A DNA stretch of 64,000 bases from Qipengyuania pelagi (GTDB taxonomy: Bacteria; Pseudomonadota; Alphaproteobacteria; Sphingomonadales; Sphingomonadaceae): contig NZ_WTYD01000001.1 in assembly GCF_009827295.1 (NCBI RefSeq), positions 1,364,001 through 1,428,000 on the forward strand, read 5' to 3'. Shown piece by piece: positions 16,883-43,664 of this stretch (position 1 is its first letter; every line of letters starts with the position of its first letter). The position numbers and the translations under genes are program-made. The notes below the pieces were generated by a model. It was not told the DNA's origin. It did not search any database and saw only the letters and a list, made by a program, of their open reading frames with translations.

Positions 16883-16947
16883 GCCCCTTAGGTAGGTGCA
16901 CTGGCCGCGCTTGTCATGCTGCGTGTGCGGTTTTGACGTGCAGGAAA

Positions 16948-17199: not shown

Positions 17200-17222
17200 G
17201 GGGTGGGAATCGCCCGCGAAGA

Positions 17223-17501: not shown

Positions 17502-17617
17502 CTTGTTGAGTCCCTCAGACGCCGGGCGCGAGCCGTCCGGCTCGCTTGGCTTCCTCGCATAAGCTCGGGCGCGCGGTCGCGCTTGCGGGCCGTCTTTGCG
17601 GCCCGACGTGCCGAAAA

Positions 17618-20077: not shown

Positions 20078-20179
20078 GCCGACTGCGTAGTCATGGTCGC
20101 ACAAATTTTGGAGCGCTAATTCGGCGAAGGCGCCAAGTCGGTAAATCGACCCGGCGCCTCCGAACTTTTTTGCGTGTTA

Positions 20180-20404: not shown

Positions 20405-20507
20405 GACACTTTCTCCTTCGCGTCAGATCGACGCAAAGGAGATCGTACATATTCGGATGGTTAAGTCAGCGCCGATGGGAATTAAGACTTTGTAATCCCG
20501 GTTTTTG

Positions 20508-21524
20508 TTAATAGCCCCGCGCCACCGCGAAACGCGCCGCTTCCACCATGGCCTGCCGCGCCTTGCCATCTGGGAAGATTGCCAGCGCATCCACCGCGCG
20601 CTGGGCGAAATGGCGTGCCCGGTCGCGCGTGTCGGACAAGGCGTCGTGCCGGGCGATCAGCGCGCAGGCGTGGTCGAGATCGGCGTCGCTGGTGCGGTGC
20701 CCGATGATCGCATCCCGCCAGAAGGCGCGCTCTTCCTCGCTGCCGCGCGCATAGGCGAGGATCACGGGAAGCGTCATCTTGCCCTCGCGGAAATCGTCAC
20801 CGCGATCCTTGCCCATCGCGGCGGCATCCGAATCGTAATCGATCGCATCGTCGACCAGCTGGAAGGCGACGCCGAGATTGCGGCCATACTCGTCGAGCGC
20901 CTGCTCCTTCTCCTCGTCACACTCGGCGACGACCGCCGCGATCCGGGCGGCGGCGGCGAAGAGCGCGGCCGTCTTGGCGCGGATGATGCCGAGATAGCGC
21001 TGCTCGCTGGTTTCGATGCGGCGCTGGGCGGTGAGCTGGTCGACCTCGCCTTCCGCGATGATTGCGCTGGCGCCGGAGAGGATTTTGAGCACCTTGAGCG
21101 ATCCGTCTTCGGTCATCAGCTCGAAGCTGCGGCTGAACAGGAAATCGCCCACCAAAACGGTCGCGGGATTGCCGAAGATGATGTTCGCCGCTGCCTTGCC
21201 GCGACGCATCTCGCTTCCATCGACGACATCGTCATGCAGCAGGGTCGCGGTGTGGATGAATTCGACCGCCGCGGCCAGCTTGTGATGGCGGCTGCCCTGA
21301 TAGCCCACGAGCTCCGCACCGGCGAGCGTGAGCATCGGGCGAAGGCGCTTGCCCCCGCCGGAGATCAGATGCCCCGCGAGAGCCGGGATCAAGGGGATCT
21401 CGCTCTGCATCCGGCCGAGTATGACCGAATTGACCGCGTTCATGCCCTGCGCGGTCAAAGCCAGCATGGGATCGAGTGAAGGGTCCGATCGACGATCGTG
21501 GAGGGGAATGATATCGGCGCTCAT
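20508..21524 (-). CDS. ispB: Long-chain trans-prenyl diphosphate synthase (ubiquinone side chain)
   Basis: The 338-residue enzyme extends farnesyl diphosphate with isopentenyl units to the ubiquinone tail. The first aspartate motif DDVVD is at 98-102 in LLHDDVVDGSEMRRG and the second is VDDAIDYDSD. The residues before the first motif are small (HTAT), which fits a long product; octaprenyl or decaprenyl cannot be told apart by eye, though Q10 is usual in alphaproteobacteria. It is divergent from the chorismate mutase gene with a 65-base shared promoter region. Confidence 0.92.
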   Translation of the reverse strand: MSADIIPLHDRRSDPSLDPMLALTAQGMNAVNSVILGRMQSEIPLIPALAGHLISGGGKRLRPMLTLAGAELVGYQGSRHHKLAAAVEFIHTATLLHDDVVDGSEMRRGKAAANIIFGNPATVLVGDFLFSRSFELMTEDGSLKVLKILSGASAIIAEGEVDQLTAQRRIETSEQRYLGIIRAKTAALFAAAARIAAVVAECDEEKEQALDEYGRNLGVAFQLVDDAIDYDSDAAAMGKDRGDDFREGKMTLPVILAYARGSEEERAFWRDAIIGHRTSDADLDHACALIARHDALSDTRDRARHFAQRAVDALAIFPDGKARQAMVEAARFAVARGY

Positions 21525-21589
21525 CTGGGACCGGCAATGGGGAGGCTGACCGGGCTTGGCAAGTGCACATTTATTGCTAGCTTGGCGCG

Positions 21590-21922
21590 ATGCCTCGCGA
21601 AACGCCCTCTGCTCGCCCGATATCGGCGCAGTCTCCTGCCGAAGATGCGGTGCTGGCCGGCTATCGCAAGAGCATCGACAATATCGACGCCGCGCTGATC
21701 CACATGCTCGCCGAACGCTTCCGCATCACCCAGGCGGTGGGCGCCTACAAGGCGAAGGCCGCCCTGCCGCCCGCCGATCCGGGCCGCGAGCACGCCCAGA
21801 TCGCACGCCTGCGCGCGCTTGCGCAGGATGCCGAACTCGACCCGGAATTCAGTGAAAAATTCCTGCGCTTCATCATCGATGAGGTGATCCGGCACCACGA
21901 GAAGGCGCGCGCGAGCACCTGA
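21590..21922 (+). CDS. Chorismate mutase (AroQ class, monofunctional)
   Basis: The 110-residue all-helical protein converts chorismate to prephenate for phenylalanine and tyrosine synthesis. It has the AroQ pattern YRKSIDNIDAALIHMLAERF, KAKAALPPADPGRE and the C-terminal helix FIIDEVIRHH. No periplasmic signal is present, so it is cytosolic. It stands alone rather than fused to prephenate dehydratase. The 20-residue N-terminal leader before the first helix is poorly conserved, so a slightly later start is possible. Confidence 0.9.
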   Translation: MPRETPSARPISAQSPAEDAVLAGYRKSIDNIDAALIHMLAERFRITQAVGAYKAKAALPPADPGREHAQIARLRALAQDAELDPEFSEKFLRFIIDEVIRHHEKARAST

Positions 21923-22069
21923 TTGGCCGACCAATACGGTCGGATTGTGGCCAAAATGCTGCAATTTTGGTGATTGGGTTCCACTTTCTCGACATTGCTC
22001 GGCAAAGGGTTGAAAGGATACGAGCAATTCCGTATCGACCCAACTCGATTTTCTCATAGGGGATTTGAT

Positions 22070-22282
22070 ATGAAGTTTAGCAAGCTTGCACTGGCCGCTT
22101 CTGCTGCCAGCGTTGCCTTGGGTTCGATTGCTGGTCAGGCCGCGGCAGCGGACCGCTCGGTCGCGCCGATCGAAGGCGAGTCGGAACTTGGCGGTGGGAT
22201 CGGCCTGCTCCTGGGCTTTTTCATCGTGGCACTGGCCGTTGGCCTGGTTGCCAGCGACGATGAAGGCCCTGTCAGCCCGTAA
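22070..22282 (+). CDS. Small exported or membrane protein of unknown function
   Basis: The 70-residue protein has a signal-like N-terminus (MKFSKLALAASAASVALG, with cleavage near AAA) followed by a second hydrophobic segment GGGIGLLLGFFIVALAVGLVA and an acidic tail SDDEGPVSP. Similar short proteins occur in Sphingomonadales, as far as I recall, without known function. AGGGGAT precedes the ATG. A strong terminator follows. It is probably membrane-anchored by the second segment. Confidence 0.7.
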   Translation: MKFSKLALAASAASVALGSIAGQAAAADRSVAPIEGESELGGGIGLLLGFFIVALAVGLVASDDEGPVSP

Positions 22283-22310
22283 TCGTTTTCAACGAGCGAT
22301 ATGAAAAAGA

Positions 22311-22343
22311 AAAACGGGGTCGGATTTCTGATCCCGTTTTTTA
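22311..22343. terminator. Bidirectional intrinsic terminator
   Basis: The stem AAAAACGGG(G)TC / GATCCCGTTTTT with a loop of about nine bases lies between the convergent small membrane protein gene and the histidine kinase gene, with a T-run on the plus side and the A-run that becomes a T-run on the minus side. Confidence 0.9.
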
Positions 22344-22351
22344 TTGCTTAT

Positions 22352-23800
22352 TCAGGTTGAGGGAACGCTTTCAATAAAGCCGGAAGAGCCCCCGGCGCGT
22401 GGCAATGCCAGCTTGACCAGCAAGCCGCCTAGATCCTCGCTCTCCGCCAGCGAGACCGTGCCGCCATAGATTTCCGCCACGTCGCGCACGATCGCAAGCC
22501 CAAGGCCCGTGCCCGGCTTGCCCGTATCGAGCCGCGCCCCCCGATCGAATATGCGCGGCCATTCTTCTTCGGGAATGCCCATCCCGTCATCCTCGATCCA
22601 GATGACGCAATGCGGGGACAGCGGTTCGGCATCGACCGTCACGAACACGCTTCCCCCGCCATATTTCGCTGCATTCTCGATGAGATTGCCAAGAATTTCG
22701 TCGAGATCCTGCCGCTCCATCGCAGCGATCGCGTCCTTGTTGCCGTCAAGATCGAAGCGCGTGCGCTCGTAGATGCGCGTCACCGCGCGCAGCACGCTTT
22801 CCACGCTCGGCCAAATCTCGGCACGCGAATGTCCGCTTGCGCGCCGCCCCACCGCACGCGCGCGGGCGAGGTGGTGTTCGACATGGCGCTGCATCGTCTT
22901 GGTCTCGCGACAGACGAGGTCGGACAGCTTGGGATCGTGGGCGGTCGCGGCATTGGTCAGCACGGTGAGCGGCGTCTTCAGCGCATGGGCGAGATTGCCG
23001 GCATGGGTGCGCGCTTCTTCGGCCTGACGCTCGGAATGCGCAAGCAGGGCGTTGACCTCCTCGACCAGAGGCTGGACTTCCAGCGGGAGCGGCTCGTCGA
23101 TCCGGTTGGCGCCCGCGCTGCGCATATCCTGGATCGCCGCCCGCACCCGGCGCAGCGGGCTGAGGCCGATCCAGTTCTGAAGAACTGCGAGCGCGAACAG
23201 TCCCAGTCCGAGCAGGGCAAAGCTCCAGACGAGGATCGCACGGATGCGGGCGATCTGGTCGTCCAATTGCTGCCTCGCGGAGGCGACCGCGAAGGTCCAG
23301 CGCGCGTCGCTGTCGGGAAGGATGACAGTACGCTGGGCGATACGCAGAGGCTCGTCCGCGAATTGCTGGCTGTCGTAGAAACGCGGATCGAAATTGTCGG
23401 CATCGCGCCGGATTTCCAGCGTGTTGTCCCACAGCGATCGCGAAGGATAGCCTTCCTTCCCCGGCGCGCTGATCTGATAATACAGCCCGCTATTGGGTTC
23501 GAGAAAGCGCGGCTCCCCCAGAACGCGGTTGAAATAGACCTCGCCATCGAGGTCGATTTCGGCCGTCACGATCATGGCGTTCAGCAGATATTCGAGCTGG
23601 TCGTCGAAATTGCGCTCGACCAGATTGGTGAGCGTCCGGTCCAGCGCAAAGCCACCTGCCAGCAGCAGGACGGCGATCCACCCCGCCGCGATCGCCATCA
23701 TGCGGCGCGCGAGGCTGCCTTCGACCTTCGTGCCCTTGGCGCGCGCCTGCTCCGGCGTTACCGCACCGGCACCGCCCGCGTCGACAGGCGGTCCAGGCAC
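22352..23800 (-). CDS. Two-component sensor histidine kinase
   Basis: The kinase has two transmembrane segments flanking a periplasmic domain of about 135 residues, a HAMP-like linker (LRRVRAAIQDMRS), the H-box NLAHALKTPLTVL with the phosphorylated His, and the ATPase N, G1 and G2 boxes (NLIENAAKYGGG, WIEDDGMGIP, GTGLGLAIVRD). This order resembles PhoQ-like kinases. The frame opens at a TTG at 23887, an ATG at 23878 and a GTG at 23800; the GTG, just after the regulator stop, is chosen, but the earlier starts overlapping the regulator by up to 77 bases cannot be excluded. Confidence 0.85.
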   Translation of the reverse strand: MPGPPVDAGGAGAVTPEQARAKGTKVEGSLARRMMAIAAGWIAVLLLAGGFALDRTLTNLVERNFDDQLEYLLNAMIVTAEIDLDGEVYFNRVLGEPRFLEPNSGLYYQISAPGKEGYPSRSLWDNTLEIRRDADNFDPRFYDSQQFADEPLRIAQRTVILPDSDARWTFAVASARQQLDDQIARIRAILVWSFALLGLGLFALAVLQNWIGLSPLRRVRAAIQDMRSAGANRIDEPLPLEVQPLVEEVNALLAHSERQAEEARTHAGNLAHALKTPLTVLTNAATAHDPKLSDLVCRETKTMQRHVEHHLARARAVGRRASGHSRAEIWPSVESVLRAVTRIYERTRFDLDGNKDAIAAMERQDLDEILGNLIENAAKYGGGSVFVTVDAEPLSPHCVIWIEDDGMGIPEEEWPRIFDRGARLDTGKPGTGLGLAIVRDVAEIYGGTVSLAESEDLGGLLVKLALPRAGGSSGFIESVPST

Positions 23801-23810
23801 AGGCCCGGCG

Positions 23811-24488
23811 TCAGGCGCGTGGCTGGTCGGCGGGATCGTCGAGCGAGTAGCCAAGGCCGCGGATCGTGGTGATGACATCCGCGCCAAGCTTCTTGCGGAT
23901 GCGGGTAACGAAGACCTCGATCGTGTTCGAATCGCGGTCGAAATCCTGATCGTAGATATGTTCGATCAGTTCGGTGCGGCTGACCACCTTGCCCTTGTGG
24001 TGCATCAGGTAGCTCAGCAGCTTGTATTCCTGCGCAGTCAGCTTGACCGGCTCGCCGTTCAGCGTGACGCGGCCCGAGCGCGTGTCGAGGCGCACGTCGC
24101 CCGCCGTCAGTTCGGCGCTGGTATTGCCCGACGCGCGCCGGATCAGCGCCCGCAGGCGCGCGATCAGCTCCTCGGTCTGGAACGGCTTGGCGAGATAATC
24201 GTCCGCGCCCGCATCCAGTCCTGCGACCTTGTCGCTCCAGCTGTCGCGAGCGGTCAGGACCAGAACCGGGAAGCCCCGCCCTTCCCTGCGCCACATGCCG
24301 AGCACGGTCAGGCCGTCGATTTCGGGCAGGCCGAGATCGAGGATCACCGCGTCGTAATCCTCGGTACTGCCGAGGAAATGTCCGTCCTCGCCATCGGTGG
24401 ACAGGTCCACCGCATAGCCGTTCTGCTCCAATGTCGACTTGAGCTGCTGGCCGAGCGTGGGCTCGTCCTCGACGATCAGAATCCTCAT
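23811..24488 (-). CDS. OmpR/PhoB-family response regulator
   Basis: The 225-residue regulator has a receiver domain (phosphoacceptor Asp51 in VILDLGLPEIDG, Lys101 in YLAKPF) and a C-terminal winged helix with LTAQEYKLLSYLMHHKGKVVSR and the recognition-helix region DSNTIEVFVTRIRKKL. It pairs with the kinase directly downstream. The PepSY protein gene upstream on the same strand is probably co-transcribed and may be part of the sensed pathway. The start ATG is clear. The signal is unknown. Confidence 0.95.
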   Translation of the reverse strand: MRILIVEDEPTLGQQLKSTLEQNGYAVDLSTDGEDGHFLGSTEDYDAVILDLGLPEIDGLTVLGMWRREGRGFPVLVLTARDSWSDKVAGLDAGADDYLAKPFQTEELIARLRALIRRASGNTSAELTAGDVRLDTRSGRVTLNGEPVKLTAQEYKLLSYLMHHKGKVVSRTELIEHIYDQDFDRDSNTIEVFVTRIRKKLGADVITTIRGLGYSLDDPADQPRA

Positions 24489-24610
24489 TATATCTTGGTC
24501 CCCGGTTGCGCGGTTGCGGCGTGTGGGCCGCCTGTCGCCGTGATGTCGTTCATGTACATGAACACGTCAAGCAGCCGACAGTTTCGCACGGTTGCAGCGG
24601 AAAAGGATTT

Positions 24611-24910
24611 TCAGTCGCTGCGCCCGAGCACGCGCCCGGTCCGCGCATCGACATCGACGAACAGGACGCGCCCGTCGCGGATGAATTTCAGGCGATAGGC
24701 CATGGCGGTGGAATCGTAAGCAGGGCCGAGATATTCGGCGCCGCGCATGGTGGGCACGATCCGCGCTTCGATGTCGCGCAGCGAAACCAGATTGCCCGCC
24801 CGCATCTCCTTGCGCGCCTCACCCTGTTCGCTGCGCGCCTGCGCGGCCAGGGGAGCCGCGGCCGGTATCGACAACCCTAGGGCGAGACAGGAGGCGATCA
24901 GGCTTTTCAT
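24611..24910 (-). CDS. Exported PepSY-like domain protein
   Basis: The 99-residue protein has a signal peptide (MKSLIASCLALGLSIPAAAPLAAQ) and one PepSY-type unit with LRDIEARIVPTMRGAEYLG and VDARTGRVLGRSD, which matches the family's beta-hairpin ending. Such periplasmic proteins often accompany two-component systems and may modulate proteases or the sensor. Here it is 122 bases upstream of the response regulator on the same strand, so co-regulation is likely but not proven. Confidence 0.8.
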   Translation of the reverse strand: MKSLIASCLALGLSIPAAAPLAAQARSEQGEARKEMRAGNLVSLRDIEARIVPTMRGAEYLGPAYDSTAMAYRLKFIRDGRVLFVDVDARTGRVLGRSD

Positions 24911-24977
24911 GACGCCTTCCTGCCTAGCGCGAGGGCATTGAACAAGGTGTGAATGTGCCGCTCTGCTGCGTTAAGGA

Positions 24978-25703
24978 TCAACGCGTCAGTTCATATTTGA
25001 CCGTCATCGTCACCTGCGTGCCGACCTGGCCGGGCCGGGTCGGGGTCGATATCCGGCTTCCGGTCACGACGATCGCCTGGGGCGCACGATCATACATCGG
25101 CTGCTGGAATCCCATCTGCTCCTCGACGGCAAGCAGGCGGACGCCGCTATAGCCGGCCATGCGGGCGTATTCCTCGGCCTGCGCCTGAGCCTTAGCGAAG
25201 GCGGCCTTGCGGGCCTGCGCCTTTTGCGGCTCGTCATTCACGATTTCCCAATTAGGCCCGCTGAGATTGTTGGCACCGGCGGCCACCAGCGCATCGAGCA
25301 CCGGTCCGATCCGGTCGAGATTGCGCAGATCGACGGTCACCCGGTTGGTCGCTTCGTAGCCGATGAATTCGGGCGGAAGGTTCTGGCGGTGATTATATTG
25401 CGGATTCAGCGTGATCCCCGCCGTCTGCACGCGATCTTCGGGAATACCGAGCGAATCCATGCGCTTGAGCACCCGGTCCATTTCGACCGCGTTCTGCTGC
25501 ATCGCCGCGACGGCGGTCTGCGCCCGCGTGGTGACGCCCGCGCTGATGGTCGCCTTGTCGGGATCGCCCAGGACCTGCTGCGATACCTGCAATTCCACCA
25601 CCGGTCCGTTCGCGGCGATCGAGACTTCGGCGGCATTCGCCGGGACTGCGATCAAAGCGGGCGTCAGCGCGGCGGCGGCGAGCGAGAGGGCGAAACGTTG
25701 CAT
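24978..25703 (-). CDS. SIMPL domain (DUF541) exported protein
   Basis: The 241-residue protein has a signal peptide (MQRFALSLAAAALTPALIAVPANAA) and a SIMPL/DUF541 domain with VSQQVLGDPDKATISAGVTT, the helical AVAAMQQNAVEMDRVL and the late ARKAAFAKAQAQAEEYARMAG. Related proteins are periplasmic or outer-membrane stress proteins of uncertain function. GGAG lies eight bases before the ATG at 25703; the longer frame upstream is not family-like. It ends just before the region with the divergent pepSY gene and shares no operon partner. Confidence 0.88.
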   Translation of the reverse strand: MQRFALSLAAAALTPALIAVPANAAEVSIAANGPVVELQVSQQVLGDPDKATISAGVTTRAQTAVAAMQQNAVEMDRVLKRMDSLGIPEDRVQTAGITLNPQYNHRQNLPPEFIGYEATNRVTVDLRNLDRIGPVLDALVAAGANNLSGPNWEIVNDEPQKAQARKAAFAKAQAQAEEYARMAGYSGVRLLAVEEQMGFQQPMYDRAPQAIVVTGSRISTPTRPGQVGTQVTMTVKYELTR

Positions 25704-25872
25704 GGGCGATACTCCAATCGGTGTGTTGGTGTGGCGAATGCCTATAACGCGCTTACGCCCCGCTGAACCGATGGGTTCCGCGATCGAGGCGCTATAGGCT
25801 CCGAATTGTAAGCCTCGTGAGGCCCACACCGGCCTTGCCGATCACCGCGCCCGCGCCTACCTGCCGCGCTCC

Positions 25873-27681
25873 ATGGCACAACCACCGATCCTCAGCTGGG
25901 AAGGTCTCGGCCTGCAACAGGGCGGCCGCTGGCTGTTTGGCGGGCCGGATCAGGACCCGATCGACCTGCATATCGGCGCGCGCGACCGCCTGGCCCTGAT
26001 CGGGCGCAACGGGGCGGGCAAGACGACGCTGTTCCGGCTGATCGAGGACCGGATCGAAGCCGATCGCGGCCTGCGCAAGGTCAAGCCCGGCACGCGCATC
26101 GTGGTGCTGGAACAGGAACCCGATCTCTCGGGCCACGCAACCCTGATGGACTGGGCGCTCGCGGGCGAGAACCCGCCTGAGGAGCACGAGGTCGAGGCGA
26201 TCGCAGGCCAACTCGGCATCGCCATGGCGACGCCCACCAAGGGCGCCAGCGGGGGCGAGAAGCGCCGTGCCGCCATCGCCCGCGCGCTGGCGCAGGACCC
26301 CGACCTGCTCCTGATGGACGAGCCGACCAACCATCTCGATCTCGCCGCGATCGACTGGCTGGAAGGCTGGCTCGACCGCTACAAGGGCGCCTTCGTCGTC
26401 ATCAGCCACGACCGCACCTTCCTGAAACGCCTCACCCGCGCGACCCTGTGGCTCGACCGGGGAACGATGCGGCGCAAGGAGGTCGGCTTCGGCGGGTACG
26501 AGGCGTGGGAAGAACAGGTCTATGCCGAAGAGGCACGCGCGGCGGAAAAGCTCGACGCGAAGCTCAAGCTGGAAGCCCACTGGCTCGAACGCGGCGTCAC
26601 CGCGCGGCGCAAGCGCAATCAGGGGCGGCTCGAGAAACTCCACCAGATGCGCGCCCAGCGCGCGTCCATGATTTCAGGCGGCGGCACTGCCAAGCTGAAG
26701 CTCGCGACGGAAGAGGATTTCAAAAGCAAGTCCGTCATCGTCGCGGATGCGATTGCCAAGACCTATGGCGATCGCACGGTCATCAAGCCGTTCAGCCTGC
26801 GCATCCAGCGGGGCGACCGGATCGGCATCGTCGGTTCCAACGGCGCAGGCAAGACCACGCTTCTGAAGATGCTGACGGGCGAACTCGCGCCCGATACCGG
26901 CTCCGTCGACATCTCGAACAAGCTGACCGGCGTGATGATCGACCAGCAGCGCGCTTTGCTCTCTCCCGACAAGACGGTGCGCCAGGTGCTGGCCGAAGGC
27001 GGCGACTGGATCGACGTTCAGGGCCACCGCAAGCACGTCCAGGCGCATCTCAAGGATTTCCTGTTCGATCCCAAGATCGTGGACACCAAGGTCGGCATCC
27101 TGTCGGGTGGCGAGCGCAGCCGCCTGCTGCTCGCGCGCGAATTCGCCAAGGCGTCGAACCTGCTCGTGCTGGACGAGCCGACCAACGATCTCGACCTGGA
27201 AACGCTTGACCTGTTGCAGGAAGTGATCGCCGATTACGAAGGCACCGTCCTGCTCGTCAGCCATGATCGCGATTTTCTCGACCGGACCGTGACGCTGACG
27301 CTCGGCCTCGACGGAAGCGGCAAGGTCGATATCGTGGCGGGGGGATACGAGGATTGGGAGCGCAAGCGCACCGAAAGCGCGGCCCCGTCGCGCAATCCTG
27401 CCTCCAAGGCGAGCGGCGCATCGCCCGCGCCCGCCCCGCCGCCGCCCAGATCGACCAAGCTCAGCTACAAGGATCAGCGCGATTACGAGCTGCTTCCCGC
27501 CCGGATCGAGGAGCTGGAAGCGGCCATCGCAAAGGGCGAGACGATCCTGGCCGATCCCCAGCTCTACACCACCGACCCGCAGAAATTCGCCACGATTTCC
27601 AAGGGGCTGGAAAATGCGCGGGCGGAAAAGGATGCGGCGGAAGAACGCTGGCTGGAACTGGCCGAACTGATCGAAGGGTGA
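25873..27681 (+). CDS. uup: ABC-F family ATPase (Uup type)
   Basis: The 602-residue protein has two ATPase cassettes in one chain (LIGRNGAGKTTLF and IVGSNGAGKTTLL; signature GASGGEKRRAAIARAL and LSGGERSRLLLA; Walker B LLMDEPTNHL and LVLDEPTNDL), no membrane segments, and a C-terminal coiled coil of Uup type (IEELEAAIAKGETIL and following). ABC-F proteins act on ribosomes or DNA intermediates; Uup is linked to transposon excision and replication fidelity. The UDG-like gene overlaps its stop by four bases. Confidence 0.93.
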   Translation: MAQPPILSWEGLGLQQGGRWLFGGPDQDPIDLHIGARDRLALIGRNGAGKTTLFRLIEDRIEADRGLRKVKPGTRIVVLEQEPDLSGHATLMDWALAGENPPEEHEVEAIAGQLGIAMATPTKGASGGEKRRAAIARALAQDPDLLLMDEPTNHLDLAAIDWLEGWLDRYKGAFVVISHDRTFLKRLTRATLWLDRGTMRRKEVGFGGYEAWEEQVYAEEARAAEKLDAKLKLEAHWLERGVTARRKRNQGRLEKLHQMRAQRASMISGGGTAKLKLATEEDFKSKSVIVADAIAKTYGDRTVIKPFSLRIQRGDRIGIVGSNGAGKTTLLKMLTGELAPDTGSVDISNKLTGVMIDQQRALLSPDKTVRQVLAEGGDWIDVQGHRKHVQAHLKDFLFDPKIVDTKVGILSGGERSRLLLAREFAKASNLLVLDEPTNDLDLETLDLLQEVIADYEGTVLLVSHDRDFLDRTVTLTLGLDGSGKVDIVAGGYEDWERKRTESAAPSRNPASKASGASPAPAPPPPRSTKLSYKDQRDYELLPARIEELEAAIAKGETILADPQLYTTDPQKFATISKGLENARAEKDAAEERWLELAELIEG

Positions 27682-34619: not shown

Positions 34620-34952
34620 CTACCTCGTTTCGGCGCGGCAGGCTTCGCGCAGGCGGTCCGCCATATCCTCCAGGCCGATGAAGACCTGCGCTGCATCGGT
34701 GTGGCCGCTGTCCAAGACGCTCGCGACCGACAATTGCATCTGCGTGACGCGGTCGATGTTCTGGAGGCTTTCGACGTGTTTGCGGATGACCGCATCGTCG
34801 CAGGCGAGTTCATAGGCCAGATCGTTGAGCAGGCGCGAGGCGATACGCAATTCCTCGGCCAAAGCCGCATGAAGCGGGGTCGCGGCGGTATCGGCTGCGA
34901 CCGGGGCGATCGCGTTCGCCTCGTCCGGCACCGGGATCGGATCGTGCATCAT
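34620..34952 (-). CDS. Small helical protein at the end of the chemotaxis operon
   Basis: The 110-residue protein has a variable N-terminus and then about 75 residues of predicted helix (LAEELRIASRLLNDLAYEL, SLQNIDRVTQMQLSVASVL, GLEDMADRLREACR) with no membrane segment or signal. I recognise no family. The ATG at 34952 overlaps the stop of the CheB-like gene as ATGA, so the two are translationally coupled. A chemotaxis accessory role, such as a helical partner of CheY or the CheB-like protein, is inference from position alone. Confidence 0.7.
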   Translation of the reverse strand: MMHDPIPVPDEANAIAPVAADTAATPLHAALAEELRIASRLLNDLAYELACDDAVIRKHVESLQNIDRVTQMQLSVASVLDSGHTDAAQVFIGLEDMADRLREACRAETR

Positions 34953-35950
34953 TTCCCGCACGCCCGCATCACTTCGATCGCGAGTTGGCTCGCGGAGACC
35001 GCCTGTACCGCCTCGCCGCGTTTCAACCGATACCCGTCATCGGTCGCATTGAAGGCATGGGAGCGCGCCTCGCCAAGCACGCTTGCCGCGCGTTCGCCGT
35101 CCTCGCCCCCGGTCCCGAACACCACGCCGACCGCTTCCTCGCCCGCGGCCTTGGCGGCGGAGGCGAACAGGAGCGAGGCGGACGGACGGACGCCGCCGAC
35201 CGGATCGCGTTCCATCAGGCGGCAATGCCCGCCCGGCCAGGTGTCGAGGACGACGTGCTTGTCCGCTCCGGGCGAGAAATAGATCTTGCCCTGCGCCAGC
35301 GTGGTGCCGTCGCTCGCGATCTCCAGCGCGGGCTTAACCTTGCCCGACAGCTCGCCGAGAAGCGCGTAGATCGCTCCCATGTCCATGTTCTGCAAAGCAA
35401 CCAGAGTGGGCGGGCAATTGTCCGGCAGGCGCGTGAGAAAGCCCTTGAGCGCGTCAAGGCCCGAAGAATCGCAACCGATCAGGAGCGGGCGGCCGTTCCA
35501 GTCGATCGGCGGCACCGGCCCATCGTCCTTCGCGGCGGCGGCCTTGGTCAGTTCGGCTTCGCGCTCGGTCTTGATGCACTTGGCGACGTCTTCGATCACC
35601 TTCTTCATCATGTCCGGCGGGCCAACCGGTTTGGGGAAGCATCCGATCGCGCCCAGACGCTTCGCTTCCGCGGTGTCGCCCGTCCCTTCGGTCGTGCGGG
35701 TCGAGAACATGATGACCGGGAGGGGCCTTGTCGTCATGATCTCTTCGAGAAAGGCGATGCCCGACATGCCCGGCATCTCAACGTCCAGGGTCAGCACGTC
35801 GGGATGGAGCTGCGCGATCTTCTCGCGCGCTTCGTCGGCACCATCGGCCTCGCCCACCACGGTGATGTTGCGGATTTCCTCGAGAGCAGAGGTGATCAGG
35901 GTTCGCATCATGCGCGAATCGTCGACAACGAGGACTCTGGTCTCGGACAT
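34949..35950 (-). CDS. CheB-like response regulator with degenerate methylesterase domain
   Basis: The 333-residue protein has a normal receiver domain (phosphoacceptor Asp56 in LTLDVEMPGMSG; Lys107 in FPKPVG) followed by a CheB-type C-terminal domain whose catalytic residues are changed. Where the active CheB (38451 region) has GASTGG with the nucleophile Ser, this has GCDSSG (159-164), aspartate at the Ser site; where active CheB has QHM, this has QNM (187-189), asparagine for the His. The Asp of the GMGNDG box is kept (Asp284). It is therefore probably not a methylesterase. Coupled to the small helical protein downstream, 47 bases after cheW. Function unknown. Confidence 0.85.
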   Translation of the reverse strand: MSETRVLVVDDSRMMRTLITSALEEIRNITVVGEADGADEAREKIAQLHPDVLTLDVEMPGMSGIAFLEEIMTTRPLPVIMFSTRTTEGTGDTAEAKRLGAIGCFPKPVGPPDMMKKVIEDVAKCIKTEREAELTKAAAAKDDGPVPPIDWNGRPLLIGCDSSGLDALKGFLTRLPDNCPPTLVALQNMDMGAIYALLGELSGKVKPALEIASDGTTLAQGKIYFSPGADKHVVLDTWPGGHCRLMERDPVGGVRPSASLLFASAAKAAGEEAVGVVFGTGGEDGERAASVLGEARSHAFNATDDGYRLKRGEAVQAVSASQLAIEVMRACGK

Positions 35951-35997: not shown

Positions 35998-36441
35998 TCA
36001 GGCCGCTTCCGCGGGCGAAGGGTTCGAAAAGGCGAGGCGGTCGAGCGCGAGGATCGAGATCACCCGGTCCTCCACCGTCGCGAGCGCCTCGAGGAAGTTG
36101 GGCGCCTGCGGATCGTGGGTGTTCGGCGGCGGTTGCAGATCGTCCTGCGAGACGGTGACGATGTCGTTCACCGCATCGGCGATGATGCCCTGCAACTGGT
36201 CGTTGATCGAGGTGACGATGATGACGTGGCGTTCGTCCGTATCGGTCAGACCCCAGCCCAGCTTGGCCTTGAGGTCGACGACCGGAAGGACCACGCCGCG
36301 CAGATTGACGACGCCGCGAACGTGCTGTTCGACATTCGGCAGAGGGGTGGTGAGCGACCAGGCGCGGATTTCGCGGATCGCCATGATGTCCATGCCAAGA
36401 GTCTGGCCGTTGATCTGGAAGGTGATGAGCTGTCGGTTCAT
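35998..36441 (-). CDS. cheW: Chemotaxis coupling protein CheW
   Basis: The 147-residue protein is a single CheW/SH3-like fold domain: LITFQINGQTLGMDIMAIREI, NVEQHVRGVVNLRGVVLPVVDL and VIIVTSINDQLQGIIADAVNDI. It links receptors to CheA. The length is typical. It is the only CheW in the window. It lies 23 bases downstream of cheY and upstream of the CheB-like gene, so one CheA-CheW set is served by this operon. Confidence 0.96.
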   Translation of the reverse strand: MNRQLITFQINGQTLGMDIMAIREIRAWSLTTPLPNVEQHVRGVVNLRGVVLPVVDLKAKLGWGLTDTDERHVIIVTSINDQLQGIIADAVNDIVTVSQDDLQPPPNTHDPQAPNFLEALATVEDRVISILALDRLAFSNPSPAEAA

Positions 36442-36464: not shown

Positions 36465-36827
36465 TCAGTGGAGAACGCGGCGGATCGCCACGGCGAGCTT
36501 TTCGGGATGGAAGGGCTTGACGATCCAGCCGGTGGCCCCGGCAGCGCGCGCGCGCTGCTTCTTTTCATCCGAGCTTTCGGTGGTCAGAACCAGGATCGGC
36601 ATCTCGGTGCAGCCCTTGCCGCGCACGGTTTCGATCAGCCCGAAGCCATCGAGGCGCGGCATGTTGATATCGGTGATCAGCAGGTCGGGCTGGTTTCCTT
36701 CCAGCTTCTCCAGCGCATGGACACCGTCTTCCGCCTCGACGATGTCGTAGCCGAGATCGGTGAGAGCAGCGCGCAGCAGCATCCGCATGCTGGGAGAATC
36801 ATCGACAGTGAGTATCGTCTTGGTCAC
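36465..36827 (-). CDS. cheY: Chemotaxis response regulator CheY
   Basis: The 120-residue single-domain receiver has TVDDSPSMRMLLR near the start, the phosphoacceptor Asp in LLITDINMPRLDG (residue 53) and the conserved Thr and Lys in LVLTTESSDEKKQ and IVKPFHPEK. It carries the CheA phosphoryl signal to its output. No output domain is present. In this operon it lies between cheD and cheW. Its target here is unknown because no flagellar genes are seen. Confidence 0.95.
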   Translation of the reverse strand: MTKTILTVDDSPSMRMLLRAALTDLGYDIVEAEDGVHALEKLEGNQPDLLITDINMPRLDGFGLIETVRGKGCTEMPILVLTTESSDEKKQRARAAGATGWIVKPFHPEKLAVAIRRVLH

Positions 36828-36856: not shown

Positions 36857-37408
36857 TCAGAAGAATTCGACGTCGCCTTCGCTGGCGGGGGTGGGTTTTG
36901 CCACGGGGGTATTAACAACCGTTGGTGGCCCAGCGCCGGTGACGGTGCGGCAGCGGGCCATGCCGAGGCCTGCGCGAAACTCCACGCGCCGCGCGCTGAA
37001 GCCGCCGACATCCTCGCCCACCAGCGGGATCTTCTCGTCGCGCAGGAAGGTACGCGCGAAATCGATATTGGACTTGCCGATATCCTTGAACGCGCTGTGC
37101 ATCCTGGCCCCGCCGAAGATGCGCGCCTTGAGGCGATGGCGCATCGCGCCGCGCTTGAGCATCTCGTTGATGAGCACTTCCATCGCGTGGATGCCGTAGC
37201 GCTGGAGATTGCCGGGGTTGTGATCCGATCCGGCGGCGAGGAGATAGTGGTTCAGGCCCCCGACGCGTTCGACGGGATCGTAGAAGCAGCAGGCCACGCA
37301 GCTGCCGAGAATGGTGGTCAGCACCACGTCGGCATCGCCACTGACCCGCGCCTCTCCCTGCGCGACGGTGATCTTGCGGAAATCGTCCCGGCGAGAAAGC
37401 GTGCTCAT
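36857..37408 (-). CDS. cheD: Chemoreceptor glutamine deamidase CheD
   Basis: The 183-residue enzyme deamidates receptor glutamines. The catalytic Cys37 lies in LGSCVACCFYDP and His54 in GLNHYLLA. The ATG at 37408 overlaps the cheB stop (ATGA), which settles the start. The C-terminal 25 residues (VNTPVAKPTPASEGDVEFF) are Pro-rich and variable. It is co-translated with cheB, so receptor demethylation and deamidation are supplied together. Confidence 0.94.
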   Translation of the reverse strand: MSTLSRRDDFRKITVAQGEARVSGDADVVLTTILGSCVACCFYDPVERVGGLNHYLLAAGSDHNPGNLQRYGIHAMEVLINEMLKRGAMRHRLKARIFGGARMHSAFKDIGKSNIDFARTFLRDEKIPLVGEDVGGFSARRVEFRAGLGMARCRTVTGAGPPTVVNTPVAKPTPASEGDVEFF

Positions 37409-38451
37409 GCCCGGCACCATTCGAGAGCGCGCGCACCGATTCGGCGCAGGGGCAATTGTTCGGTCACCGCGCCGCATGCGAAGGCTTCGGCGGGCATTCC
37501 GTAGACGATGCTGCTGGCCTGATCCTGACCCAGCGTCATCGCACCGGCGTTGCGCATGGCAAGCAGGCCCTTCGCGCCATCATTGCCCATGCCCGTCAGG
37601 ATCATGCCGAGCGCATTGGCGCCGGCGAAGCGTGCCAGCGAATGGAACAGGCGATCGACCGAGGGGCGATGGCCGTTCATCTTGTCTCCTTCGATCAACC
37701 GGCAATGCAACCTCGACGGATCGCCCGCGATTTCGAGATGCTGGAGGCCGCCGGGTGCAAGATACACCTTGCCGGGCGCCAGCACCGCGCCCGGACGCGC
37801 TTCTTCCACGCTCGGCGGGCAAAGGCGATCAAGCCGGTCCGCGAAGCTCTTGGTGAAGCTTTCCGGCATATGCTGGACGATGACGGTGGGCGGGCAATCG
37901 ACGGGGAAATTGCGGAGCAATTCGATCAGCGTTTCGACGCCGCCGGTAGAAGCGCCGATTCCGATCACGCTGCGATCGCGGGCGCGATAGGTCGTCGCGG
38001 CCTTGGCCTGCGCCGGGCTCTGTACTCTCGCTGCTCGGTTCCCGAATCCGGGCGAGGTGCGAGCCTTCGCGGCGGTGAAGACCAGATCGACGAGCGAGGA
38101 CTTGCCTGCTTCGCCCCGCAGGGAGAGATCGCGCTTGTCGAAGCAACCGATGGCACCGATTTCGAGCGCGGTGAGGCTGGCCTCGGCGCCCTCGCTGGTC
38201 AGGGAAGATACCATGACCACCGGCGTCGGGCGCAGGGTCATGATCCGTTCGAGGAATTCGAGCCCGGACATCCCGTCCATTTCGATATCGAGAGTCACGA
38301 CATCCGGGTCGAGCGCCTTGATCATCTGGCGCGCTTCCTGCGCGCTGGAGGCGATACCGACGACCGAAATCGCGTCCGAACCCTCCAGCTCGCGGCTGAC
38401 GAGCTGCTGCATCGTCCGGGAATCGTCGACCACGAGAGCGCGAACAGTCAT
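37405..38451 (-). CDS. cheB: Chemotaxis protein-glutamate methylesterase CheB (canonical)
   Basis: The 348-residue protein has an N-terminal receiver (phosphoacceptor Asp55 in VTLDIEMDGMSG) and a C-terminal methylesterase with the full triad: Ser168 in IGASTGG, His194 in VQHMPES and Asp291 in GMGNDGA. It removes receptor methyl groups when phosphorylated by CheA. The ATG overlaps the cheR stop by one base. The contrast with the degenerate copy at 34949-35950 is clear. It is upstream of cheD. Confidence 0.96.
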   Translation of the reverse strand: MTVRALVVDDSRTMQQLVSRELEGSDAISVVGIASSAQEARQMIKALDPDVVTLDIEMDGMSGLEFLERIMTLRPTPVVMVSSLTSEGAEASLTALEIGAIGCFDKRDLSLRGEAGKSSLVDLVFTAAKARTSPGFGNRAARVQSPAQAKAATTYRARDRSVIGIGASTGGVETLIELLRNFPVDCPPTVIVQHMPESFTKSFADRLDRLCPPSVEEARPGAVLAPGKVYLAPGGLQHLEIAGDPSRLHCRLIEGDKMNGHRPSVDRLFHSLARFAGANALGMILTGMGNDGAKGLLAMRNAGAMTLGQDQASSIVYGMPAEAFACGAVTEQLPLRRIGARALEWCRA

Positions 38452-39320
38452 TAGGCGACCTTCCGGTAAGATGTGCGTCCGACGATTTCGAACCGCGGAG
38501 CGACGCTGGGATCGAGCCGCTCCGAATGGCCGATGCACAGCAGACCACCCAAAGCGAGACGATCGGCCAGACGCGCCTGCAATTTCGCCTTGGTGGGACC
38601 GTCAAAATAGATCATCACGTTGCGGCAGAAGATCGCATCGAACATCGTTCGGATCGGCCAGTCACCGAGGAGATTGAGCGAATTGAACGTGATCGCATCG
38701 CGCAGCATGGAATCGACCTGGAACTGGTCGCCCGGCTTCTTCTTCAGCCACGTCTTCGCCAGCGGCGCGGGCACCGGCTCCACCGTCTGCGCACAATAGA
38801 TGCCCTCCCTCGCCCCGGCCAGCGCGCTGGCGGAGATATCGGTGGCGAGCATACGGAAATCCTGGGCCAGGAGCTTGCCCGTCTTCGTCCGGTCGCTGCC
38901 GAACATGGCCATCAGCCAGCTATAGGGCTCCTCCCCGCTCGAACAGGCCGCCGACCACAGGCGAACGCGCCCTCGCCCTTCCAGCCGCGCTTTCAGATCG
39001 GGCCAGGCGAGCGTGTTGAAATCCTCGAAGTGATGCCCCTCGCGAAAGAAGAAGGTGTGATTGGTCGTCAGCGCATCGATCATCCGATTGCGCTCGACGG
39101 GATCGTTCTCGATCCTTTGCAGGTATTCTGCCACGCTGCCGAGCCCGCACGCGCGCACACGCGGGGCGAGGCGACCATAGACGAGCTGCATTTTCGAGTC
39201 GGGCAGCAGGATGCCGACCTCGCGATAGGCGAGGTCCGCTACCGCGCGGTGATCCGCCGCGTCGAAGGCGAATTCCCGTCCACGCTGGGTTGGCTCGGCT
39301 GGCTGGGCCATCGCGCTCAT
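38451..39320 (-). CDS. cheR: Chemotaxis protein methyltransferase CheR
   Basis: The 289-residue enzyme methylates receptor glutamates from S-adenosylmethionine. It has the N-terminal helical CheR domain and the Rossmann domain with RVRLWSAACSSGEEPYSWLM and FDAIFCRNVMIYFDG, the expected SAM-binding residues. The start is an ATG overlapping the cheA stop (ATGA). The C-terminal beta-subdomain is present. It is followed by cheB. Confidence 0.96.
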   Translation of the reverse strand: MSAMAQPAEPTQRGREFAFDAADHRAVADLAYREVGILLPDSKMQLVYGRLAPRVRACGLGSVAEYLQRIENDPVERNRMIDALTTNHTFFFREGHHFEDFNTLAWPDLKARLEGRGRVRLWSAACSSGEEPYSWLMAMFGSDRTKTGKLLAQDFRMLATDISASALAGAREGIYCAQTVEPVPAPLAKTWLKKKPGDQFQVDSMLRDAITFNSLNLLGDWPIRTMFDAIFCRNVMIYFDGPTKAKLQARLADRLALGGLLCIGHSERLDPSVAPRFEIVGRTSYRKVA

Positions 39321-41608
39321 GCCGCGCTCGCAAGGCTGGGCGTGCCGCGCATGTCGCGATGCGATGCGACCAGTTCATGCGCATCGACGATGAGGGCGAC
39401 CTTCCCGTTGCCGAGGATCGTGGCCCCCGCCACGCCGTCGATCGGCTGGAAATTGGCTTCCAGACTCTTGACCACGACCTGGCGCTGATCGTTGATCGCA
39501 TCGACCATCAGGGCGACCTGGCCCTTGTCGCTGTCGACCACGACGAGGACGCAATCGGACGGATTGCGCGGTTTGTCATCGACCTTCAGCGCGTGGGCGA
39601 CCGACACGATCGGCACATAGCTTCCGCGCACGTTGAGCAGATGGTCGGAGCGACCATAGGCTTCGATCGTATCCGCAGTAGGACGTACGTTCTCGACGAC
39701 ATGCGAGAGCGGTATCACCATCGTCTGGTCGCCGACCGTCACGACCATACCGTCCAAGACGGCCAGCGTGAGCGGGAGGCTGAGCGAGAACGTCGAGCCC
39801 TTACCCGGTTCGGAAGAGATCGCGATCCGGCCGCCGAGCGCCTGAATGTTCTTGCGCACGACGTCCATGCCCACGCCGCGACCCGAAATGCTCGAGACGA
39901 CTTCGGCGGTGGAGAATCCGGGGGCGAAGATGAGCTGATCGATTTCCTCGTCGCTCAGCACGGCATCGCTATGTACGATCCCGCGTTCGATGGCGCGTTC
40001 GCGAACCTTGGCGCGATTGATCCCGCGACCGTCGTCGCTCACCGCGATGACGATACGACCGGACTGGTGCGTTGCGGAGAGGCGGATCAGCCCTTCTGCG
40101 CTCTTGCCCGCTTCGATCCGGCCCTCGGTGCTTTCCAGCCCGTGATCGACAGCATTGCGGATAAGATGCGTCAGCGGTTCGCCGATGCGCTCGATGACGG
40201 TCTTGTCGACTTCCGTCATCTCGCCTTCGAATTCGATGCGGACCTTCTTCTTCGTTTCCGCCTCGAGATCGCGGATGAGGCGCGGAATGCGGCTGTAGAC
40301 CGTCTTCATCGGCTGCGCGCGGATCGCCATCGTCGATTCCTGCAAGTCGCGCGTCAGCAGTTCGAGATCGGCCAGTTCGTCGGCATGGGCGGCGTTACGA
40401 TCCAGCAGTCGCTGGGACAGCATGGCCTGTGTGATGACCAGCTCGCCGACGAGGTTCACCAGACGGTCGAGCCGATCGAGATCGACGCGGATGGTCTGCG
40501 AAACCGGAGCCGCAGCCGGTTTTTCCACGGCGCGGGGCGGAGCCGGAGGAGCGGGCGCAGCGACAGGTTCGGATGCTTTTGCGGCCGCGGGTGCCTGTTC
40601 CGTTTCAGGCGAAGGGACAGGGGCGGGAACGGGTTCTGGAACCACCACGGGCTCGACCGGCGCATCGGGCAGCGGTTCGGCCTGGACAGTCGGGCTTTCG
40701 AGGACTGGCTGCTCCGGCGCGGAAGGCTGCGCAAGCGGTGTGAGCGTGTAGCAATCGGGCTCGAAAAATTCGAACACCGAACGAATCTCGTCTTCCGCGA
40801 GGGCCGAGGGAAGCACCATCGTCCAGCGCAGATAACCGAGCGAGGCATCAAGCGCTTCGAGCTGAGGGAGGCTATCGGTGTGACAGCATCGGTTCACGGC
40901 GCCCAGACCATGCAATTCGCGCAATACGAGCAGGGGTTCGCCGCCATTGGCGAAGGCCCGCGCGCCGGGCGCATATTCGAGCAGCCAGCCGCCAGCCTCC
41001 GCTACCCCACTATCGGGGGCGCTCACTTCAGGCTCGCTCTCGACGGTGGTTTCGGTGCTGGCTGCGACGGAAAGATCGTCCGTTTCGCTCTGCGACGCGC
41101 CGAAATCGGGCAGGTCTAGCATAGCCATCAGGTCGTCGAAATCGTCGCCGCCAGCCGATGCGCCGGTTTCCGGGGCAGTCGGTTCGGACGGTGTCTCGGC
41201 CTGAGCCGGTTCGGGCACTGCGGGCTCCGGCGTTCCCTCGCACCGCGCGATCAATTGGCCGATCATGGCCGCATCGTCAGGCGCGTCGCTATGGCTTCTG
41301 GCACTCGCTACGTGGTCCGACAGAATATCGAAGGCCCGGACGAGCAGCGACAGCAGATCGTCATCGAGAGCGATCTTGCCCGAGCGCACCAGATCGAGCA
41401 GCGATTCGAATTCGTGCGCGTATTTCTGAAGGCGCTCCAATCCGAAGGCGCCCGCGCCTCCCTTGATCGAGTGTACGTGACGGAAGATCGTGTTGATCGT
41501 CTCGGGATCCTGCTCGTCGCCGTTCAATTCGGCGAAACAGGATTCCAACCCGGCCAGCCCTTCCTCGCATTCCTGGAAGAAGATCGCCTCGATTTCATTC
41601 ATGTCCAT
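39317..41608 (-). CDS. cheA: Chemotaxis histidine kinase CheA
   Basis: The 763-residue kinase has the P1 phosphotransfer domain (His46 in RHVHSIKGGAGAFG), a P2-like region (about residues 200-300), a long Pro/Glu-rich linker of about 60 residues, dimerisation helices, the ATPase domain (LTHLIRNAVDHGLES, GRGVGMDVVRKN) and a C-terminal CheW-like domain. It is complete. It autophosphorylates and passes phosphate to CheY and CheB. It lies between the STAS gene and cheR. The start MDMNEIEAIFFQECEEGL is standard. Confidence 0.96.
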   Translation of the reverse strand: MDMNEIEAIFFQECEEGLAGLESCFAELNGDEQDPETINTIFRHVHSIKGGAGAFGLERLQKYAHEFESLLDLVRSGKIALDDDLLSLLVRAFDILSDHVASARSHSDAPDDAAMIGQLIARCEGTPEPAVPEPAQAETPSEPTAPETGASAGGDDFDDLMAMLDLPDFGASQSETDDLSVAASTETTVESEPEVSAPDSGVAEAGGWLLEYAPGARAFANGGEPLLVLRELHGLGAVNRCCHTDSLPQLEALDASLGYLRWTMVLPSALAEDEIRSVFEFFEPDCYTLTPLAQPSAPEQPVLESPTVQAEPLPDAPVEPVVVPEPVPAPVPSPETEQAPAAAKASEPVAAPAPPAPPRAVEKPAAAPVSQTIRVDLDRLDRLVNLVGELVITQAMLSQRLLDRNAAHADELADLELLTRDLQESTMAIRAQPMKTVYSRIPRLIRDLEAETKKKVRIEFEGEMTEVDKTVIERIGEPLTHLIRNAVDHGLESTEGRIEAGKSAEGLIRLSATHQSGRIVIAVSDDGRGINRAKVRERAIERGIVHSDAVLSDEEIDQLIFAPGFSTAEVVSSISGRGVGMDVVRKNIQALGGRIAISSEPGKGSTFSLSLPLTLAVLDGMVVTVGDQTMVIPLSHVVENVRPTADTIEAYGRSDHLLNVRGSYVPIVSVAHALKVDDKPRNPSDCVLVVVDSDKGQVALMVDAINDQRQVVVKSLEANFQPIDGVAGATILGNGKVALIVDAHELVASHRDMRGTPSLASAA

Positions 41609-41936: not shown

Positions 41937-43382
41937 TCAGAATTCCGACCAATCGTCCTCGGCGAGCATCGCGCCGCCACCGCCACCGCCAGCAGCCACG
42001 CGCTTGGGCGCAACCGACGCTTCCTGCCGGGGCGCGGGTTCGGCTCGCGTGGCGCTTGCCGCGCGCGCCTGGAGGCGGTGCACCGGGTTGGCCGGCACAC
42101 TGCTGCCCTTGCCGTCGCGCACACGGAACTGCGCGATCTTCTGGTTGAGCGTTTCGGCTTCCTCGGCCAGGCTGCGTGCCGCCGCGGTCGCTTCTTCCAC
42201 CATCGCCGCGTTCTGCTGAGTCACCCCATCCATCTCGCTGACAGCGGTGTTGACTTGCTGGAGCCCGGTCGACTGCTGCTTGGCGGAGGCCGCGATGGTC
42301 CCGACCAGATCGGAAATCTCGGCGATGCGGCCGATGATCCGTTCGAGCGCCTGGCCCGTTTCGCTGACCAGAGCGACCCCATGTTCGACCTGATCGGTCG
42401 AAGCGGTGATCTTTTCCTTCACGTCCTTGGCCGCTTCCGCCGAACGCTGGGCCAGGGCCCGGACTTCCGACGCGACGACGGCGAACCCCTTGCCGGCATC
42501 GCCGGCGCGAGCCGCTTCAACGCCTGCGTTGAGAGCAAGGAGATTGGTCTGGAACGCGATCCCGTCGATCACGCTGATGATTTCGCTGATTTCGTTCGAG
42601 GCGCGCTCGATACCGTTCATCGATTCCACCGCACGGCGCACGACTTCGCCCGAGCGTTCGGCATCGCCGCGCGTTTCGCTGACGATGCTGTCGGCGCGGC
42701 TCGCGCCTTCTGCGGTTTCCCGGACGGTGCCGGTGATCTCATCCATGGCGGCGGCGGTTTGTTCGAGGCTGGCCGCCTGCTGTTCGGTCCGCTGCGACAG
42801 GTCATCCGATGCCTGACGGATGTCGCTGGCGCCGTTGCCGATCCCGTTGGCGGCTTCCATCACGCTCGCCATGACCTCGCTGAGCGAATCGATCGCGCCG
42901 TTGAAGTCCGAACGCAATTGCTCGTAATCGCGCGGGAAGGGCTCTTCGATGCGGCACGTAAGATCGCTCTTCGCCAGGCGCGAAAGCCCATCGCCTAGCG
43001 CACCGACGATCTGCTGCTGTGCTTCGGCTGCATCGCGCACCTGTTCGCCATGCTGGCGGAAGGTGTCCATCGCCTTAGTCATGCGGCCGACACAGTCGGT
43101 ATATTGCGTACGCTCGATCGGGCTGGAAAGATCGCCGGCGGCAAGGCCTTCCATCCTCACGACGGTGTCGACGTAGGGATCGCAAACGATCTTCTTGAAG
43201 GCGAAGCCGAGGGCAATGGTCATCACGACCGCAATGGTCTCCGCAGTCAGGACGGCAGCGGATACCGTTTCGTTTGACAGGATCGTCAACAGGAACGGGA
43301 TCGCCGAAAGCAAGGCGAAGACCGCAATCATGACGTCGAATTTCCGCCGGATAGGCGCTTGCTCGCGAAACCAGGTAACCAT
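41937..43382 (-). CDS. Methyl-accepting chemotaxis protein lacking a periplasmic sensor
   Basis: The 481-residue receptor begins MVTWFREQAPIRRKFDVMIA with two adjacent membrane segments (about 17-36 and 44-63) separated by only a few residues, so there is no periplasmic ligand domain. It then has a HAMP linker and the signalling hairpin with the conserved tip IDGIAFQTNLLALNAGVEAA. The C-terminus ends in DDWSEF, a pattern like the W-x-x-F tail that binds CheR or CheB in other receptors. It may sense through the membrane, the HAMP or cytosolic partners. It starts the che operon. Confidence 0.9.
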   Translation of the reverse strand: MVTWFREQAPIRRKFDVMIAVFALLSAIPFLLTILSNETVSAAVLTAETIAVVMTIALGFAFKKIVCDPYVDTVVRMEGLAAGDLSSPIERTQYTDCVGRMTKAMDTFRQHGEQVRDAAEAQQQIVGALGDGLSRLAKSDLTCRIEEPFPRDYEQLRSDFNGAIDSLSEVMASVMEAANGIGNGASDIRQASDDLSQRTEQQAASLEQTAAAMDEITGTVRETAEGASRADSIVSETRGDAERSGEVVRRAVESMNGIERASNEISEIISVIDGIAFQTNLLALNAGVEAARAGDAGKGFAVVASEVRALAQRSAEAAKDVKEKITASTDQVEHGVALVSETGQALERIIGRIAEISDLVGTIAASAKQQSTGLQQVNTAVSEMDGVTQQNAAMVEEATAAARSLAEEAETLNQKIAQFRVRDGKGSSVPANPVHRLQARAASATRAEPAPRQEASVAPKRVAAGGGGGGAMLAEDDWSEF

Positions 43383-43664
43383 ATTCGAGCATCCTAAATC
43401 GATCGGCAGGGCCGAAAGGTGAGGGGTGAATGCCGGACGATTACGCATTATGCGCTAAATTAAAGTTAACGACCCGGATGCTGACAAAAACCGCCGGAAT
43501 TCAAGTCGCCTCACCCCCTCGCTCACGCACAGTCAAACGCAGTCAGGATTTGCGCGAAGGCGCGTTGGCGCATCTGCTGGCGCAATCATTCGAAGGGAAT
43601 TGCGCAGCGTCGGGCGGAATAGTTGAACCATCTCTTCCCACGATTACCAAGCATTAACCAAAAA

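Follow-up and report, generated by a model that had tools for sequence, protein, structure and literature searches.

What does a second CheB-like protein do in a chemosensory operon when it has lost the catalytic serine and histidine of the methylesterase? The question is raised by a 64,000-nucleotide stretch of the Qipengyuania pelagi genome (contig NZ_WTYD01000001.1, positions 1,364,001 to 1,428,000; hereafter, the window), in which one che operon encodes both a canonical CheB (B1) and a pseudo-CheB (B2, gene cheB2). Judging from sequence and predicted structure, B2 is rated slightly better than even to be a phosphorylation-controlled binding regulator of the chemosensory pathway that no longer works as a Ser-His-Asp methylesterase.

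A CheB fold without the Ser-His pair

An earlier, sequence-only reading of the window had pointed to an open reading frame (ORF) with a CheB-like fold. This ORF is real, and both of its domains exceed the Pfam cut-offs: the receiver matches Response_reg with 81.2 bits (cut-off 30.2), and the effector matches CheB_methylest with 71.4 bits (cut-off 24), covering only positions 2-137 of the 174 in the profile. The protein stays below the NCBIfam cut-offs for CheB (NF001965, 207.8 bits vs 293; NF009206, 158.4 vs 342), while B1 is above the first (386.9) but below the second (329.4). PADLOC returned no match.

In the alignment to B1, the serine position of B2 is Asp161 (in GCDSSG) and the histidine position is Asn188 (in QNM), a call that uses the downstream register, one extra residue standing in the preceding strand (the upstream register gives Gln187). 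The third triad residue, Asp284, and the phosphoacceptor Asp56 are kept; the Ser-His-Asp triad is thus absent, and reads D161, N188, D284. These letters agree with those first reported, as do Ser168, His194, and Asp291 of B1 when counted from its ATG (197, 223, and 320 from the upstream GTG). The remainder of the fold had been called intact, which holds for the core but not for the C-terminal end, rewritten and shortened past about residue 298.

The AlphaFold model of B2 (mean predicted local distance difference test 91, predicted template modelling score 0.68) contains two domains that match their CheB counterparts, at 2.4 Å over 177 residues (1chd) and 2.0 Å over 135 (3t8y). The whole chain compares with 1a2o at 11.3 Å over 315 residues; the model of B1 (template modelling score 0.87) does so at 1.8 Å over 340. 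For B2, the prediction thus does not show the closed CheB packing, although low confidence in the domain arrangement would account for this equally well. The fold lists obtained with the whole model were dominated by receivers, so that the absence of a family from them carries no weight.

Which triad residues are lost was followed in two protein searches, each represented by the best 120 homologues by similarity to its B2 query. The first, with the B2 of the window, scored 5320 relatives among 7999 candidates; the second, with a more distant relative (L018), listed a further 120. The serine is replaced in all 120 homologues of the first set (D 90, E 27, N 3), whose histidine position reads H in 100, Q in 14, N in 5, and I in 1. 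In the L018 set, the serine position is S in 110, G in 6, A in 3, and T in 1, and the histidine position Q in 66, P in 22, R in 15, A in 12, H in 2, G in 2, and S in 1. The third Asp and the phosphoacceptor Asp are both kept in 120/120 of either set and hence in 240/240 listed homologues, 238 of which lack Ser and/or His. After dropping sequences more than 80% identical, 115 B2 proteins remained; Ser is kept in 53, His in 49, and both in 2. The suggested check, conservation of the Asp/Asn replacements across Sphingomonadales, consequently comes out in part: a loss of the catalytic pair is conserved, but Ser goes in one half of the relatives and His in the other. The change of His to Asn is local, and the Asp/Asn pair is not what the clade conserves.

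A clade of its own beside an intact CheB

A tree of 124 CheBs (117 from the examined loci and 7 from databases; all support values from FastTree only) places every triad-broken CheB, including the B2 of the window, in one clade of 56 tips with a support of 1.0, together with a single homologue that spells the triad (P0165). The 68 remaining tips are all Ser-His-Asp. Exactly the same 56 are recovered in a receiver-only tree (117 columns, support 0.78) and in an effector tree without the triad columns (142 columns, support 1.0), and the tree needs 2 changes between the broken and the intact state, where 200 shuffles gave 41 on average and never fewer than 32. A long-branch artefact was considered as the source of the clade and rejected, as the separate receiver and effector trees each recover all 56.

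The clade splits into two halves, with supports of 1.0 and 0.90. One half carries D, E, or N at the serine position, with His mostly present; the other carries S, G, A, or (once) N there, and has no His except in P0165. On the tree, 10 letter changes fall at Ser and 13 at His. The simplest reading would be an ancestor with Ser and His, followed by separate inactivation in each half; the ancestor may also have been dead beforehand through some other change, for example in the GMP loop.

Among the samples examined, the B2 clade was seen only in Sphingomonadaceae sensu lato, the family of the window, where it spans many genera, which supports the conservation in Sphingomonadales that the earlier reading had put up for checking. 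In clusters of the cheA-cheR-cheB-cheD-cheY-cheW type with both genes in view, a Ser-His-Asp CheB accompanies a B2 without this triad in 33/33 loci (32 genomes, L039 and L146 being one genome, that of Chakrabartia godavariana, with one PF02895 match), and B2 lies after cheW or divergently beside the MCP/cheA end (MCP, methyl-accepting chemotaxis protein). Seven further loci have B2, with the canonical gene absent from the fetched stretch. For 34 genomes, both proteins were extracted, B1 being Ser-His-Asp in all and B2 in none; these sets were sorted by the triad itself, but sorting all locus proteins of the tree by clade gives the same result, and the clades are independent of the triad columns. 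No B2 was seen within the fetched stretches of alphaproteobacterial che clusters of other types (9 loci, 2 of them from other families, plus 8 within the family). A class-wide search, judged at E 1e-90 or better and so able to miss distant B2 members, matched 23/385 genomes; the 21 that lie outside the family are Ser-His-Asp without exception, and so are ten out of ten loci from four other families of the order.

Across the 34 matched genomes, receivers have a mean pairwise identity of.587 in B1 and.621 in B2, and effectors one of.579 and.439, respectively. The Nei-Gojobori ratio of nonsynonymous to synonymous change (dN/dS) is.03-.19 (effector,.04-.27) in the seven B2 pairs of lowest dS (under 0.55), which are not independent (three are formed by L118, L120, and L125, and two have L136 in common). 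Over all pairs kept, namely 866 for B2 and 1461 for B1 with limited synonymous difference, many of them saturated, the median is.446 for B2 (receiver.290, effector.609) and.414 for B1 (receiver.393, effector.430); one distant B2 pair reaches.893. These ratios indicate that B2 is under purifying selection in the closest pairs, with a relaxed effector.

Conservation of single positions was compared with a B1 set of broader taxonomic range than that of B2. Thirty-six positions are at least 90% conserved in B1 but below 70% in B2, 6 in the receiver and 30 beyond it. These 30 include the Ser, Thr, Gly, and Gly of the nucleophile loop, the His with its preceding Gln, the Thr-Gly-Met-Gly before the Asp, and the Gly-Met-Pro loop. 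All phosphorylation residues (D10, D11, D56, S83, and K107) are present and at least 90% conserved in both proteins, and the B2 effector keeps D284, H232, P256, S257, and G285 at 90% or more. Residue 70 is Glu in 115/115 B2 and Lys or Arg in 57/58 B1. Trp151 and Gly153 are further B2 signatures, a WNG motif following the linker in most members.

The operon and its neighbours

The minus-strand operon runs in the order MCP, cheA, cheR, cheB, cheD, cheY, cheW, cheB2, and a small gene (Table 1). The genome has a second che cluster (C1:1.895-1.905 Mb), with its flhA at 1.923 Mb. Where sources name B2 homologues, they mostly call them CheB or response regulator; B2 is hidden by annotation, because many of these names say CheB, methylesterase, or methyltransferase.

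Table 1. Features of the che operon in the window (positions in the window) and B2 genes away from such operons (positions in their own loci).
Feature	Position	Strand	Remarks
cheB2 (pseudo-CheB, B2)	34949..35950	minus	ORF with ATG start, 333 residues
cheB2 domains			receiver, residues ~4-120; linker 121-150, then DWNGR; pseudo-methylesterase domain, ~152-333
canonical cheB (B1)	37405..38538	minus	ATG start probably 38451, 348 residues from ATG; Ser-His-Asp intact
cheW	35998..36441	minus	Pfam
cheY	36465..36827	minus	receiver only; Pfam
cheD	36857..37477	minus	Pfam; coordinates of the longest ORF, later start likely
cheR	38451..39320	minus	Pfam
cheA	39317..41608	minus	Pfam domains Hpt, H-kinase_dim, HATPase_c, CheW
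chemoreceptor (MCP)	41937..43448	minus	C-terminus DDWSEF, an xWxxF pentapeptide
small gene	34620..34952	minus	110 residues; ATG overlaps the cheB2 stop (ATGA); cheU-position family
orphan B2	L238 8027-9049	plus	without cheA and cheB of this cluster
orphan B2	L241 7962-9128	minus	without cheA and cheB of this cluster
orphan B2	L169 9239-10330	plus	without cheA and cheB of this cluster

Eight MCP genes were found in the genome of the window, and only that of the operon ends in an xWxxF pentapeptide. Across the examined loci, 42/62 MCP ORFs end in WxxF, some genomes being counted twice.

The small gene belongs to a family in the cheU position of alphaproteobacterial che clusters, cheU being termed "hardly described" in PMC10579534. 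One related ORF occurs in each of 119 loci, one of which (L071) bears a cyanobacterial title. The Q, D, and Q of a QxxDxxxQ motif are invariant in 87/87 unique locus sequences; in 10 homologues from databases, the D is missing from P0259 and the first Q from P0260. CheZ and HisKA_3 kinases have DxxxQ as their phosphatase motif, and CheZ (PF04344) had no match in any of the 13 genomes searched. The small protein is a candidate phosphatase of phosphorylated CheY or CheB. Pfam gives it a weak sub-cut-off match to DUF7776 in the window and none over the cut-off in 8 others. As a dedicated partner of B2 it was rejected, since members of the family are also found in che clusters that lack B2.

Elsewhere, two similar gene sets lie apart in one genome (L191 and L192; G000:C1:2168000-2182000 and 12000-26000), each with a protein of about 1150 residues, a CheR-like protein, a short receiverless CheB with intact triad, and a protein of about 377 residues.

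What the dead twin may do

B2 resembles known CheBs (PF00072 + PF01339; Salmonella 1a2o, Pectobacterium 6ymz) in domain order, both folds, receiver phosphorylation residues, and its place in che operons. It differs by the missing Ser-His pair, the eroded TGMG and GMP loops, and the shortened C-terminus. In PMC7698151, a Ser-His-Asp triad is discussed for the P. atrosepticum enzyme (6ymz), and the four CheB paralogues of P. aeruginosa, pentapeptide-dependent and independent, are treated as methylesterases; they are likewise several per cell and unlike in receptor recognition, but B2 stands apart from them by its lost triad. Caulobacter, another alphaproteobacterium with two CheBs, has CheBI and CheBII in two separate operons of related content including cheU (PMC10579534), whereas B2 lies inside or beside the same operon as CheB. 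A search of the open literature, with most subscription papers outside it, found no description of a catalytically dead CheB or of the sphingomonad B2, in agreement with the earlier remark that no named system of this kind was known.

As a binding regulator, B2 would be phosphorylated on Asp56 by phosphorylated CheA, a step suggested by the intact receiver site, and phosphorylation would alter the exposure of the dead esterase domain. This domain may then bind a partner common to canonical CheB, most likely the methylation helices or the tether of receptors, or CheD, and shield or scaffold it instead of demethylating. Receptor tethering is a reasonable guess, because many receptors here end in WxxF and, in other bacteria, such C-terminal pentapeptides are binding sites of CheR and CheB (PMC7698151). 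The outcome would be a tuning of the gain or kinetics of the adaptation set by CheR, CheB, and CheD. A narrower version, in which the dead twin, depending on its phosphorylation, reads or shields the methylation sites of receptors, and the ratio between the two competing CheBs sets demethylation, is tentative and must be regarded as rather doubtful.

Several observations weigh against B2 as a binding regulator. The sequence-only reading had named relatives with an intact triad as what would overturn it, and 2 of the 240 listed homologues (P0140 and P0165) do spell Ser, His, and Asp, so that not every member need be inactive; in both, LH or MH replaces QH and EAP replaces GMP, and in the tree P0165 branches within the triad-broken proteins. 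Of the 30 genus mates listed for the window's genome, not one scores at the level of B2 (best 3.3e-68, G279); B2 seems patchy in this genus, and the B2-bearing operon may have been gained or retained by few members. The eighth-closest B2 pair already has a dN/dS of.379. The B2 effector, less conserved than that of B1 and with the higher median dN/dS over all pairs kept, also fits a mostly passive domain. Three genomes (G344, G384, and G345) have an orphan B2 reading Gly-Asp-Asp, without the CheA and CheB of the operon type, and in G024 the gene lies off the main cluster, beside another receptor (a protoglobin) and a CheA-like protein. As these three genomes keep an intact B2 without its twin, the earlier proposal of a competitor of CheB is weakened as the sole explanation and only partly supported.

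The orphans differ in what surrounds them. In both G344 and G384 there is a further che cluster, which resembles the second cluster of the window's genome and encodes a CheA and a canonical CheB of its own, and another CheA could thus feed these two of the three; G344 also encodes a CheB-CheR fusion. In G345, the only other CheB is in a fusion of the CheB-CheR type. Locus L169 retains cheW and a cheU-like gene close by and looks like a cluster with its middle deleted. The CheA-like protein of G024, a 2.1 Mb genome (L194 10718-12388, plus strand), has 557 residues, in which Pfam finds HATPase_c and CheW only, with neither Hpt nor a dimerisation domain; it is perhaps a CheA variant, or a pseudoenzyme next to a CheB pseudoenzyme. 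PF02895 matches once in G024 and once in G109, but B2 lies away from these matches, next to a receptor and a CheA-like protein missed by PF02895.

Extra CheYs act as phosphate sinks in some alphaproteobacteria, and B2 could be imagined only to drain phosphoryl groups from CheA, shortening the CheY-P signal, with the esterase domain as a passive remnant. B2 shares with such CheYs an additional receiver fed by one CheA; the receiver is its best-kept part, the effector is relaxed, and the genomes searched showed no CheZ. Nevertheless, sink CheYs are receiver-only while B2 has a conserved CheB-like effector, and a passive domain should vanish or decay, which is at odds with the low effector dN/dS of the seven closest pairs and with the five effector residues kept at 90% or more. 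A mere sink is accordingly improbable.

Just as improbable is an output or scaffold outside adaptation, in which the dead domain binds a partner other than the substrates of CheB. It draws on the orphans of G344 and G384, which have both flanks in common, no che genes within 17 kb, and a dN/dS of.095 between them (dS 1.49; range of five neighbouring genes,.030-.184), on the absence of FHIPEP matches in G384 and G345 and of a PF02895 match in G345, and on G024 with its protoglobin receptor and Hpt-less CheA-like protein. Conversely, B2 is inside or beside the che operon in all 33 loci with both genes in view, the second che clusters of G344 and G384 could feed the orphan, and the single PF02895 CheA of G050 has B2 in its cluster.

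An altered enzyme in the Sphingomonas half, with Asp or Glu as the nucleophile beside His and Asp (Asp-His-Asp) and with new chemistry or a ligand pocket, is less credible still. Its case is that Ser has become D or E in 117/120 listed homologues of the first search, with His kept in 100/120 and Asp in 120/120; but the B2 of the window itself has no His, the sister half has mostly Ser with Gln, Pro, Arg, or Ala at the histidine position, and the TGMG and GMP motifs are eroded. A decaying duplicate without function can practically be set aside: the triad residues do drift on the tree, but no internal stop interrupts the listed B2 matches, dN/dS is low in close pairs, the receiver site is kept, and members occur in many genera. 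Pseudogene decay was rejected on the same open frames, ratios, and receiver site, and the loss is selective rather than general, as had been supposed.

The idea of a binding regulator is testable by one deletion, because G050 has one CheA match (PF02895), one FlhA-type match, and one B2, which lies in the same cluster as this CheA. Textbooks describe receptor methylation by CheR and CheB as a feedback loop, to which a conserved triad-broken CheB, standing beside an intact one in a bacterial family, would add non-enzymatic control. If demethylation is indeed set by two competing CheBs, the receptor-modification cycle would have a pseudoenzyme branch, in which inactivation struck Ser in one half of the clade and, separately, His in the other.
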